NCBI GenBank assembly: GCA_944390115.1
Contig: CALXOW010000005.1
Coordinates: 1 to 64,000, forward strand
Direction of reading: 5' to 3'
Source of the DNA: an uncultured Anaerobiospirillum sp.
GTDB lineage: Bacteria > Pseudomonadota > Gammaproteobacteria > Enterobacterales > Succinivibrionaceae
DNA: 64,000 bases
Numbering within the stretch: position 1 is the stretch's first letter; each line of letters opens with the position of its first letter. This document shows, in pieces, positions 46,113 through 50,356 of this stretch. The position numbers were made by a program, and so were the translations under genes. Below the pieces are notes generated by a model. The model worked only from the letters and a program-made list of their open reading frames with translations. It was not told where the DNA came from and did not search any database.

Positions 46113-47225
46113 ATGCGCATTTATAAATTTCTTTTCGCTTTAGTCTGCTGTGTGCTCACTCTGGGCGCAACCATGACCACCACCCAGGCCGCTCGCCTTA
46201 AAGACTTGGCCTCGGTGCAGGGTGTGCGCAGCAACCAATTGATCGGTTACGGTCTGGTGGCTGGTTTAGCCGGTACCGGTGAGAGTAACTCTGACTTCAC
46301 CGAGCAGACCTTCCGCTCGATGCTCAACAACTTTGGCATCAAGGTTCCAGATAACGTCACCTTAAAGATTTCTGACGTCGCTCCAGTGGTCGTGCACGCG
46401 GAACTGCCTCCATTTGCCAAGCCGGGTCAGCAAGTTGATATCACGGTTTCAGCGATCGGCGAGGCCGAGTCGCTGCGTGGTGGCTCGCTCTTGCAAACCA
46501 TGCTGCGTGGTATTGACGGCAACGTCTATGCGGTCGCCCAAGGCTCCTTAGTCGTCGGTGGCTTAGGCGTATCCGGTGCCGACGGCTCGCGCGTCGTGGT
46601 CAACACTCCAACCGTTGGTCGTATTCCTAACGGTGCCACGGTCGAGCGTGAGGTTCCAACTGACTTTAACTTAACCGACAGCATCACTTGGAACTTAGAT
46701 CGCCCAGATTTCACCACGGCTAAGAACGTCGCGGACACCATCAACAGCATCTTTGGTCAAGGCTCGGCCGTGGCCCAAGACGCAGTTTCGATTCGCGTTA
46801 CGGCCCCACGTGACCCAAGCAAGCGCGTGGAGTTCATGGCCTCCTTAGAGAACCTCGATATCGCTGAGGGCCAAGAAGATGCCCGTATCGTGGTTAACTC
46901 GCGTACTGGCACCATCGTCGTGGGCAGCAACGTGCGCTTAAAGCCAGTGGCCGTAACTCACGGTGGCCTAACCGTCACGGTCAGCGAAGACCCACAAGTA
47001 TCGCAGCCTGCTCCATTTAGCCAAGGCCGCACGGCTGTGGTTCCAAACTCCAATATCAACGTCGAGGAAAAGCAGGGCCGCATGTTCAAATTTGACCCAG
47101 GCACCACCCTCGATGATTTGGTCCGCGCCATCAACGAAGTAGGCTTAGCCCCAGGCGACTTGATGTCGGTATTAGAGGCCTTAGACCAAGCCGGTGCGAT
47201 TGAAGGCCGCTTAGTCATCATCTAA
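46113..47225 (+). CDS. flgI: Flagellar P-ring protein FlgI
   Basis: Periplasmic P-ring protein, 370 residues. It has a signal peptide to about residue 27 (ends TTQA), then [55 protein letters not shown], and the C-terminal [40 protein letters not shown]. Family length is normal. It is the last flagellar gene in this run; flgJ, flgK and flgL, which follow in most clusters, are absent from the window. A terminator follows. Confidence 0.95.
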
Positions 47226-47248
47226 GCAGCACAAGCAAAAATAAAAAG

Positions 47249-47283
47249 AAGCGGGAGGCCACAAGCTTCCCGTTTTCGTCTTT
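47249..47283 (+). terminator. Terminator of flgI
   Basis: AAGCGGGA (47249-47256) pairs with TCCCGTTT (47268-47275, one G-U), followed by TCGTCTTT. Confidence 0.65.
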
Positions 47284-47420
47284 GCGCTCAGCGCACGGAA
47301 GGTAGAGCAGCCTTAGCAGCTTGGCTCAGGCCATTTCCCGCATTTAGGCCAGGTAGGATTGGCTCAGCCTACCATTGGCGTGATTGCTCGGGGCTCAATG
47401 CTGGGTTGAGCCCGACCCGC

Positions 47421-47516
47421 TTATGAGCGGTTAATTAAAATGGCAAGGAACAACATCGTTGCCGAGAAGAAAGCGCATAATGCGATAAAGATCCAATCCA
47501 TCCACGTGAAGTCCAT
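47421..47516 (-). CDS. 31-residue hydrophobic peptide, copy 1
   Basis: Too short for standard calling. The frame reads MDFTWMDWIFIALC then a Phe/Leu/Ala membrane segment ending AILINRS. One transmembrane helix from about residue 8 to 27, an acidic N-terminus with two tryptophans, and a basic NR end. GAGGT lies five bases before the ATG, the same ribosome site as in copies 2 and 3. Upstream, a GTG-started frame (VWLKPALLEIEV) overlaps it out of frame. Not recognised, but the layout is that of a type I toxin or another small membrane peptide. Confidence 0.65.
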   Translation of the reverse strand: MDFTWMDWIFIALCAFFSATMLFLAILINRS

Positions 47517-47741
47517 TTGGCACCTCAATTTCTAAAAGCGCTGGTTTTAGCCACACGGCTTCTAACTTGTACCAGCTGTTCACACCTATTAAAAGATGCT
47601 GGTGACCTAAAATCTTTCGCTCTATGCGCAAGGATAGTGGTGGTTAGCAACGCTCGGCTTTTATGGTTGGCTGCTCGCTGCCTCTGGGCTAAACGACATG
47701 TGTGAGCTCTTGCTCATGAAATCCGTGCCTTAGAGACAAAA

Positions 47742-47762
47742 CAGCCTCAGCGGCTAGGCTAA
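47742..47762 (-). terminator. Terminator of peptide unit 2
   Basis: AGCCT (47743-47747) pairs with AGGCT (47756-47760), followed on the minus strand by GTTTTGTCT. The same hairpin with AGCCTTAG/AAGGCT follows unit 3. Confidence 0.6.
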
Positions 47763-47846
47763 GACTATTTCCCGAATTTAGGCTGATTGAGATAGGATTG
47801 GTTCAGCCTACTATTTTCTGCGTGATGACTGCGGTGCTAAATGCCG

Positions 47847-47942
47847 TTATAAGCGGTTAAGCAGAATGGCATAGAACACTGCCGATGCACCGAACAAAGC
47901 GCATAATGCGATAAAAACCCAATCCATCCAGTTAAGATCCAT
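47847..47942 (-). CDS. 31-residue hydrophobic peptide, copy 2
   Basis: Reads MDLNWMDWVFIALCALFGAS, then AVFYAILLNRL. Identical in layout to copies 1 and 3: acidic/aromatic start, one membrane helix, basic NR end. GAGGT is four bases before the ATG. Unlike copy 1, the GTG-started leader (VWLKPVLLKIEVQ) is in frame with the peptide here, so a longer N-terminal form is possible. A TATAAT on the minus strand about 80 bp upstream and a terminator hairpin at 47742-47762 would give a transcript of about 290 nt. Confidence 0.7.
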   Translation of the reverse strand: MDLNWMDWVFIALCALFGASAVFYAILLNRL

Positions 47943-48278
47943 TTGCACCTCGATTTTCAAAAGCACTGGTTTGAGCCACACGGCTCCTAAATTGCGCCAG
48001 ATGGTACTGACCATTATAAGAGGTTTGCGACCTGAAAGCAGTGCTTTTTGCTGCAGGCTTGTGAGTCTCCTACCCCTCTGGGCCTGGAAAGCAAGCCAAA
48101 TATTCAGACGGGGACAGGTTAATGCGTCGACCACACCGGCTGTGCTTTTTGGCGCGGCCGTGGTTAGCAATGCTCGGCTTTTCTGTTGGTCTGTCCGTTC
48201 CAGCCGTGCACACCGAGCCCAGCGACAAGAGATAGTGCATGTTCGCAGCTCATAAAAGCCATGCTTTAGAAACAAAAC

Positions 48279-48302
48279 AGCCTTAGCTGTTAGGCCAAGG
48301 CT
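48279..48302 (-). terminator. Terminator of peptide unit 3
   Basis: AGCCTTAG (48279-48286) pairs with the CAAGGCT arm (48296-48302), followed on the minus strand by GTTTTGTTT. Confidence 0.65.
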
Positions 48303-48391
48303 ATTTCCCGAGAATTTAGGCTGATTGCTGATTGAGATAGGATTGGTTCAGCCTACTATTTTCTGCGTGATGACTGCGGTGCTAAATGCCG

Positions 48392-48487
48392 TTATAAGCG
48401 GTTAAGCAGAATGGCATAGAACACTGCCGATGCTCCGAACAAGGCGCAGAATGCGATAAAAACCCAATCCATCCAGGTGAAATCCAT
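48392..48487 (-). CDS. 31-residue hydrophobic peptide, copy 3
   Basis: Reads MDFTWMDWVFIAFCALFGAS, then AVFYAILLNRL; it differs from copy 2 at three positions. GAGGT is five bases before the ATG. The conservation of an in-frame, uninterrupted 31-codon frame in all three units, while the DNA between them diverges by insertions, argues that the peptide is really made. Its own TATAAT lies near 48566. Confidence 0.7.
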   Translation of the reverse strand: MDFTWMDWVFIAFCALFGASAVFYAILLNRL

Positions 48488-48692
48488 TTTAAACCTCGAC
48501 TTTCAAAAAAAAAGCACTTGCTTGACTAGCAAGGTTCCTAAATTGCGCCAGATGTTATTGAGCATTATAAGAGGTTTGCGACCTGAAAGCTGTGATTTTT
48601 GCAAACCAGCTTGTGAGTCGCATTCCTCTTGTAATATTGCCCTTTTACCGCTGGCTTGCAATCAGTGGGGCCTAGGTCAATGAAGACCAAGA

Positions 48693-49241
48693 CTAACTCT
48701 GATCAGAGTTTTGGTTCTCAGGTTTAGTTTGACCCTTTTCTTGGGCTGTTTCAGCTCCAGTGGTGGCAGAGTATCCTTGGTTAACGGTTACTTTATCTGC
48801 CTTGCTTGGGGCAATGATTATGACATTACCCCTTGAGTCAAGTGAGATATCAGCAGAAGTCTCAGCTTTACCGTTAGCATCAACCTTAGACTCAAGCACA
48901 ATGTGAACATCAGTCTTTAGACTGTTCTCAGTCTGTGCAGAGTTTACACCGGCACCGTCAGAAGCAGACGGTGCTTTACCTCCATCACTGGAGTTGGCTT
49001 GAGGTGATGGGCTATCTTTCAAATCATTCAAGGTGGTGTAAATGGTCCAACCAATAACGATCGTGGCGACGCTTAGCCCTGCCAGTGCTAACGAACAGCC
49101 GATAAAGAGCGTAGGCTCTTCGTTGAAGGTGATATCGAAGGCCAAATAAAGGCCAATTGAGATCGTGGTTCCCAGCATCCAGACAAAGCACTTGTTGCAG
49201 TAGCTCAACTTGCGCTCTGTATAGACTCGATTGATAATCAT
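48693..49241 (-). CDS. Unrecognised membrane protein with two TM helices
   Basis: A 182-residue protein. I start at the ATG at 49241 because GGAGAG lies five bases upstream; the longer frame has no site. It opens MIINRVYTERKLSYCNKCFVW, then two membrane helices at about 18-37 and 46-68 with an acidic link, and a hydrophilic, Ser/Ala/Asn-rich C-terminal half containing VDANGKAETSADISLDSRGNVIII, which looks like a small beta-rich element. It lies just upstream (minus strand) of the three peptide units and may be related to them, but no domain is known. Confidence 0.6.
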   Translation of the reverse strand: MIINRVYTERKLSYCNKCFVWMLGTTISIGLYLAFDITFNEEPTLFIGCSLALAGLSVATIVIGWTIYTTLNDLKDSPSPQANSSDGGKAPSASDGAGVNSAQTENSLKTDVHIVLESKVDANGKAETSADISLDSRGNVIIIAPSKADKVTVNQGYSATTGAETAQEKGQTKPENQNSDQS

Positions 49242-49640
49242 CGCGTCTCTCCGCTTGGAGTTAGTAGATAACCTGCCGAGCGTTCGGCAGAGCCTTGTTT
49301 TAGCACAGGGGAGGTGATACTCTAAGCGGACATCCTCCTGCTGTCTTAAGCGAGGATTTTCCCCTGTGCTGGCGGTATTGCTACAGCCTTGGTTTACAGG
49401 GATCCTAGAGCTGACATCTTGGTTTGTTTGCCTTCGAGCAACTACCACATCGATCGAAAGCTAACGGGCCGTAATGTCAGTGTTGGAAGGAAAGAGTTAA
49501 TCACCTTAGCTGTTTGGCCGTAATTAACTCTCCGTTCCCTAGGCCGTTGCTCTGGGCTTATCTGCCCTCGGTTTGGCGGGAGCGGTTGACTTGGTTTCTA
49601 TCCTTGTTCTTAGTTTCTCAGGCCTTGATCGAGAATGGAA
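49242..49640. other. Intergenic region, about 400 bp
   Basis: Upstream side of the two-TM gene. Nothing recognised except palindromic words near 49278-49350. Confidence 0.35.
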
Positions 49641-49649
49641 ACTTATGTC

Positions 49650-50180
49650 AATCGTTGCCGCCCAACGCAATTCAGTTTACCCCAATTTCCTCTTCACCCC
49701 CTTAAAATACCCGTTCAAAACATTTGACCAATGCGCCGGGATGGTGGTGGTTGGTCATGTACTGTTGCGCTTACAGCGCCATTGGCTTGTTACCGATGAG
49801 CTGTCTAAGTGGTGGAAGAAACATTGGACTGTGGTCGTGGGTCACTGGTTGGGAAGGATGTGACCGTGACTAAAGTCAATAGTTGCGTTCCACGAAGTCA
49901 AGTGTATCCCATCTTTTGCCGCACCCCCTTAAAATACCCGCTCAAAACATTTGACCAATGCGCCGGGATGGAGATGGTTGGTCATGTACTGTTGCGCTTA
50001 CAGCGCCATTGGCTCGTTACCGCTGCGCTGTCTAAGTGGTGGAAGAAATATTGGACTGTGGTCGTGGGTCATTGCTTGGGAAGGATGTGACCGTGACTAA
50101 AGTCAAACGTTGCGTTCCACGAAGTCAAGTGTACCCCATCTTTTGCCGTACCCTCTTAAAATACCCGTTCACTGCCTTCG
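49650..50180. repeat. 227-bp tandem direct repeat, about 2.3 copies
   Basis: Blocks at about 49704, 49931 and 50158 repeat with a 227-bp period, the first two over the full unit and the third partly. Each unit opens a short frame (MVVVGHVLLRLQRHWLV or MEMVGHVLLRLQRHWLV), but many differences between copies change the amino acids and the frames overlap, so coding is doubtful. A related stretch with GGTTGGCTGCTCGCTGCC-like words lies near 47650 and 50210. Confidence 0.75.
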
Positions 50181-50356
50181 CTCTATGCGCCAGGATGGTG
50201 GGAATGTTCAACTGTTTTGGTGGGCTGTTCGCTGCCGCCGGGCCAAAAGAAAGGGTAAAGTGCATTAGCTCAGAGAGCTTGGGTAGCTATTCGAAGCTGC
50301 GTAGATGAAGGTGGCTGTTGGCGCTGTTGCTCGCGCTGAGGCTTGGTGGTGGGCGC

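Follow-up and report, generated by a model that had tools for sequence, protein, structure and literature searches.

Three tandem cassettes in an uncultured Anaerobiospirillum genome appear, from in silico analysis, to encode a real, lineage-restricted orphan peptide family. The family is type I-toxin-like, while the toxicity of its peptide and an antitoxin RNA are putative. The window (the whole 64,000-nt stretch of DNA that we analyzed) has three minus-strand frames of 31 codons each, arranged in tandem at 47.3-48.6 kb. Translation confirmed the frames, and all three lie exactly where the first-pass annotation of this DNA had placed them:

47421..47516 (-): peptide ORF of unit 1 (31 aa), translates to MDFTWMDWIFIALCAFFSATMLFLAILINRS
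47847..47942 (-): peptide ORF of unit 2 (31 aa), translates to MDLNWMDWVFIALCALFGASAVFYAILLNRL
48392..48487 (-): peptide ORF of unit 3 (31 aa), translates to MDFTWMDWVFIAFCALFGASAVFYAILLNRL

At the DNA level, the repeat spans 117 nt with 74-76% identity across the three copies, which is far above chance, and units 2 and 3 share a repeat of 163 nt with 96% identity. No further copies occur in the window's own genome (G000), where a fourth match is at chance level (E 0.08). A relative in the same genus (G003) carries two copies beside flgI (L034 8383-8478 and 8809-8904). The protein of copy 1 is the same as that of unit 2, and copy 2 reads MDFSWTDWVTISLFASFGALAVFYAVLLARS. The only named record carrying the peptide is contig CALXXU010000004.1 of an uncultured Anaerobiospirillum MAG (64,484 bases), which we take to be that of G003.

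The peptide was found in two of the 11 genomes of the genus and, at E-values up to 0.01, in two of the 57 genomes of the family. An initial search of relatives, run at E-values up to 1, gave matches in 57 of 98 genomes, with a best value of 0.004 outside G000 and G003; these additional matches are what is expected of short hydrophobic sequences matching by chance. Non-exhaustive samples of the order (395) and the phylum (398) yielded matches in two genomes, G000 and G143, and G003 is not among them, presumably because it was not drawn. The G143 match (E 5.5e-5) was rejected, as it lacks an ATG start and sits on the opposite strand within a 232-aa ORF.

Searches of Pfam, NCBIfam, PHROGs, PADLOC, PDB, Rfam, phages, plasmids and viral contigs gave nothing convincing. 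What came up was weak: PspC at E 0.077 and 0.15, a single PHROG at E 0.37, and a phage sequence at E 9. For the three window peptides, NCBIfam gave 0 families, and Pfam at E-values up to 10 gave no match to Hok, Ldr, Ibs, TisB, ShoB or Fst, all of which are present in Pfam. The database and related-genome searches that had been proposed as a check on the peptide returned no known family, and among the genomes searched copies only in the window genome and G003. In the literature that we searched (open-licence papers, mostly by title), there is no published report of this peptide and, by title, none of a toxin-antitoxin system of this kind in Anaerobiospirillum.

The same searches bear on an earlier suggestion that the peptide may be an accessory subunit, like KdpF or CydX, of a known enzyme. 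KdpF and CydX have a single helix and a length like that of the peptide. However, no Pfam or NCBIfam match comes near the cut-off (the best, PspC at E 0.077, scores 13.2 bits against 25), and the recognizable neighbors tested are FlgH, FlgI, a solute-binding protein and a transport permease, none of which is a gene of the expected kind. With the peptide also confined to 2 of 11 genus genomes, we consider such a subunit extremely unlikely.

The frame is exactly 31 codons long in all five copies (three in the window and two in G003), with no indel and no stop, while their leaders differ by indels of up to 5 nt and their 3′ UTRs by up to 17 nt. The annotated integrity of the frame despite flanking insertions holds in the window units, and neither copy in the relative G003 has a disrupted frame. 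In neutral simulations, whose pairwise P values are non-independent because the pairs share history, unit 2 or 3 differs from G003 copy 2 by 11 amino-acid changes, against an expectation of 16.4-17.5 (P 0.001-0.004). Pairs with unit 1 give weaker results (P 0.02-0.08), and no selection is detectable when units 2 and 3 are compared with each other (6 changes, P 0.17-0.19). Pairs drawn from units 2 and 3 and both G003 copies have dN/dS ratios of 0-0.25 (0.11-0.25 when unit 2, unit 3 or G003 copy 1 is compared with G003 copy 2), and pairs with unit 1, where the signal of selection is weak, have ratios of 0.34-0.62. These sequence comparisons support the view that selection acts on the peptide frame.

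The peptide has one strongly hydrophobic segment, with a hydropathy of 2.2-2.6 in the best 19-mer. Two Asp and two Trp residues precede this segment and one Arg follows it. Membrane type I toxins are described as shorter than 60 aa, hydrophobic and TM-helical, generally with a cationic C-terminus (PMC8309996). Our peptide matches the size and hydrophobicity of this description at 31 aa with a presumed TM helix. Its Arg30 is invariant in the five copies, but the net charge is -1 all the same, so the basic character attributed to it earlier does not apply to the peptide overall. IbsC, ShoB and DinQ are described in the same source as being without positive C-terminal residues (PMC8309996).

The hydrophobic moment is low (0.08-0.14), and invariant residues do not cluster on one face of the helix (P 0.31). 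Under the positive-inside rule, which is used to assign membrane orientation, the peptide would insert in the inner membrane with its N-terminus out and its C-terminus in. Its synthesis would lead to depolarisation or permeabilisation of the membrane, an action like that of a type I toxin.

Each unit would be a stand-alone gene whose product is a membrane peptide of 31 residues with a single helix. The unit would begin with a -10 of its own, which is degraded in unit 1, and continue with a leader of ~60-70 nt from an assumed start, a ribosome site, the ORF and ~100 nt of 3′ UTR closed by a hairpin. The corresponding signals are:

47522..47526 (-): ribosome site GAGGT of unit 1
47947..47951 (-): ribosome site GAGGT of unit 2
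48493..48497 (-): ribosome site GAGGT of unit 3
47588..47593 (-): TTTAAT at the -10 place of unit 1 by alignment, degraded
48013..48018 (-): TATAAT, -10 of unit 2, with a weak -35 (CTGCTT)
48564..48569 (-): TATAAT, -10 of unit 3, no usable -35 found
47742..47761 (-): terminator-like hairpin of unit 2, followed by TTTTGT
48276..48297 (-): two overlapping terminator-like hairpins at the end of unit 3
48517..48533 (-): terminator-like site within the leader of unit 3, may be chance

GAGGT begins 9-10 nt ahead of the ATG in units 1, 2 and 3, in agreement with the annotation of a ribosome site for each unit. The TATAAT reported upstream of units 2 and 3 is present as an exact hexamer, but the promoters are weaker than had been claimed, with a poor -35. 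A consensus promoter scan found no two-box promoter at the TATAAT of either unit; a looser matrix gave a weak -35 for unit 2 and left the TATAAT of unit 3 outside that unit's four best sense sites. Exact TATAAT occurs 6 times on both strands of the window, compared with a mean of 13.4 in shuffles, and is present in 4 of the 5 copies in the window and G003, with unit 1 having TTTAAT instead. The intrinsic terminators proposed for units 2 and 3 correspond to terminator-like hairpins with a T-run behind each. Transcripts of these units would be ~272 and 286 nt if they start 7 nt past the -10, close to the earlier prediction of ~290 nt. The terminator scan listed none after unit 1, and the terminator-like sites at 47000-49000 (5, versus 2.4 with sd 1.7 in shuffles) represent a modest excess.

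The ribosome site is predicted to be occluded in four of the five copies, with an unpaired probability of 0.00-0.02 in the 5′ part and 0.01-0.08 over the whole transcript. In these copies, the site is less open than at 92-94% of 72 control starts, some of which may be false starts, and 1-7% of 100 context shuffles have a site with an opening that low. The pairing partner is codons 2-3 in units 1 and 3, and a site ~42-46 nt inside the ORF in unit 2 and G003 copy 1. The start codon is mostly open in units 1 and 3 (0.60-0.66). In the fifth copy, G003 copy 2, the ribosome site is not occluded (unpaired 0.25-0.47). The peptide would stay at a low level because its ribosome site is buried in the mRNA structure. 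In type I systems, mRNA elements that sequester the ribosome site are described as contributing to repression of the toxin (PMC8309996).

The genes in this region are FlgH and FlgI on the plus strand, and a family-3 solute-binding protein and a transport permease on the minus strand. The cassettes occupy a variable interval between flgI and the solute-binding-protein gene. A solute-binding gene of this kind is near flgI in 10 of 11 genus genomes including the window's, and the G010 contig ends before it would be reached. In G005, G006 and G007 it is reversed, and is the same kind of gene and a putative ortholog. The interval ranges from ~0.4 to 4.9 kb, and intervals share only 24-38 nt matches, except for the pairs G000/G003 and G002/G008. 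Small hydrophobic frames with an SD were sought in 12 flgI intervals of 11 genomes, giving, besides those of G000 and G003, three in G010 and one each in G009 and G006, and none in the other six genus genomes; this filter misses G003 copy 2, whose SD is GGGT.

Two side observations concern this interval. A second tandem repeat lies at ~49641-50250 of the window, with a spacing of ~228 nt and 87% identity. Its plus-strand frames have a Trp-rich basic stretch of 40 residues and show no sign of coding (2 silent versus 6 changing differences by eye), and related sequence occurs upstream of peptide unit 1. In G010, the flgI interval (L057 1582-3730) encodes four proteins of 110-122 aa, which contain several hydrophobic segments apiece and have separate ribosome sites, and also has a 29-aa hydrophobic frame. 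A family search with three of these proteins as query recovered those three and a weak G007 match (E 0.004); the fourth was not recovered. We rejected the idea that the G010 proteins are fused homologues, as hhalign comparison of three of the four with p187 (described below) and the peptide gave probabilities of 0.4 and 2.5%.

Next to flgI, unit 1 and G003 copy 2 occupy equivalent positions. The two are identical at 88/88 positions between the stop codon and the hairpin, and the hairpin matches at 22/25, whereas the ORFs match at only 64/96 and the leaders at 49/71. Synonymous and nonsynonymous sites both differ (pS 0.44, pN 0.32). In 50-column windows, identity to G003 is 58-84% over 47401-47650, 100% at 47351-47400 and 94-98% just past 47650, with a second, shallower dip to 82-84% at 47251-47350. 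Since synonymous sites differ too, tract replacement by recombination or gene conversion would account for this pattern more readily than would selection acting only on the peptide. Units 2 and 3 have identical 3′ UTRs up to the hairpin (80/80, with 9 gap columns) and leaders that match at 56/70. The array would have grown by tandem duplication and would be changing by recombination in the variable interval behind flgI.

The identity of unit 1 and G003 copy 2 downstream of the stop codon, beside ORFs that match at 64/96, is what could favor a structured small RNA, i.e., a repeated RNA gene in which the frame is incidental and the 3′ UTR is the part that matters. Against this, the frame is intact in 5/5 copies, amino-acid changes are fewer than neutral in the most diverged pairs and the SD is at the right spacing. 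Folding of the full transcripts is also weak (z -1.6 and -1.8, with 13 and 11 of 200 shuffles folding equally well), the consensus structure has two-sided changes in 1 of 63 pairs and there is no Rfam match in the stretch. An RNA gene of this kind is therefore improbable.

The first-pass annotation had proposed that the near-palindromic TATAAT region could give rise to an antisense RNA. The plus-strand site there in units 2 and 3 (TTGCGC-17-TATAAG) would fire away from the gene. Type I antitoxins are described as having 18 to more than 75 nt of complementarity, mostly in cis and in some cases from a divergent location (PMC4147584). In the 124-222 nt upstream of each -10, the best complement to an 18-nt stretch is 12-13/18, which is no better than in shuffles (15 simple shuffles per unit). 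Given this divergent geometry and the lack of an 18-mer match beyond shuffles, the palindrome does not support an antisense RNA. As for one acting in trans, the unit-2 leader has 10 matches in its own genome; three are the units themselves, the others are weak, and the two best of these (E 0.137) lie in large coding genes and were rejected.

A different candidate is a promoter-like site in the 3′ UTR that points into the ORF:

47787..47814 (+): putative antisense promoter-like site TTGAGA-16-TACTAT in the 3′ UTR of unit 2
48332..48359 (+): putative antisense promoter-like site in the 3′ UTR of unit 3

Three of the five copies have the site, namely units 2 and 3 and G003 copy 1, and these count as one observation because they are nearly identical there. 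It falls in the 0.013% tail of window positions, of which units 2 and 3 are themselves two. It is absent from unit 1, which has no antisense site above the 0.4% tail, and from G003 copy 2, which has another, weaker one (0.045% tail). The scan listed no plus-strand terminator-like site within the units. In some copies, a cis-antisense RNA with its start in the 3′ UTR would perhaps help repression.

Directly upstream of the array, on the same strand, is a gene with a putative link to the peptide:

48693..49241 (-): p187 protein, 182 aa from its ATG

By eye, p187 has two hydrophobic segments and a polar tail. It is found in 2 of 57 family genomes, and these are the same two that have the peptide. 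Between the window and G003, p187 is 77% identical, far more diverged than the products of the flanking genes (FlgI 100%, solute-binding protein 98.9%, permease 99.8%), and the differences are chiefly in its middle part. G003 additionally has a p187-like protein on contig C150, where no peptide copy was found. The leader of p187 (49257-49410, minus strand) folds well (z -2.95) and has no Rfam match; that of a p187-like gene in G003 (L054 618-770, minus strand) also folds well (z -4.2) and resembles it by eye.

The shared distribution and position of p187 fit a non-toxic small membrane protein that, for example, regulates or stabilises a membrane partner such as p187 or a transporter, and is tandem-amplified for dosage. 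The simple TM helix, its low hydrophobic moment and the conserved acidic, Trp-bearing N-terminus agree with such a role. However, a peptide in only 2 of 11 genus genomes is not a core subunit, and no peptide copy was found on C150 along with the p187-like protein. We regard this explanation as possible but rather unlikely. An exported, bacteriocin-like membrane-active peptide with p187 as its immunity partner could account for the divergence of both the ORF (64/96 between unit 1 and G003 copy 2) and p187 (77%, versus 98.9-100% in three flanking proteins). There is, however, no exporter among the neighbors tested, and the p187-like gene of G003 is on a contig without the peptide, so this is very doubtful. 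We also see little probability in a lineage-specific two-part membrane system, kept in the variable interval behind flgI, in which the toxin-like array recombines and p187, a fast-changing membrane protein, takes the role of protein partner or immunity factor in place of an RNA antitoxin.

We tentatively suggest a type I toxin-like mode of action for the peptide, without assigning it to the type I systems: the peptide features are present, ribosome-site occlusion is predicted in most copies and any antitoxin is a candidate. The tandem tiny hydrophobic peptides, the predicted ribosome-site occlusion and the lack of known relatives fit the earlier proposal of a possible new type I toxin, but the antisense RNA in that proposal is not supported. 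If toxic, the peptide would represent a type I-like family without a sequence link to any family searched, and the mosaic copies would lend themselves to studying how peptide sequence and leader structure change jointly.

Among known systems, Ldr/Fst and Ibs/Sib have a hydrophobic helix and a size similar to the peptide, and Ldr and Ibs occur as repeated copies. By contrast, our peptide has a net charge of -1, and the three window peptides have no match to these families in Pfam at E-values up to 10. The Gram-positive TxpA/RatA and BsrG/SR4 systems have a convergent, 3′-overlapping antisense RNA, as the candidate 3′ UTR promoter would likewise give, although the promoter-like site is in only 3/5 copies and the units have no listed plus-strand terminator-like site. 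Compared with Zor/Orz, TisB/IstR, ShoB/OhsC and DinQ/Agr of E. coli, the units are without a divergent stretch of 18-nt complementarity, have a short leader (~60-70 nt, assumed start) and match no family. They are like these four systems in the tiny hydrophobic peptide and in ribosome-site occlusion, which is predicted here. A parallel in arrangement is zorO/zorP, which form tandem copies as the units do, and ZorO is described as having been discovered in a search for tandemly duplicated small hydrophobic proteins (PMC8309996; PMC3919570).
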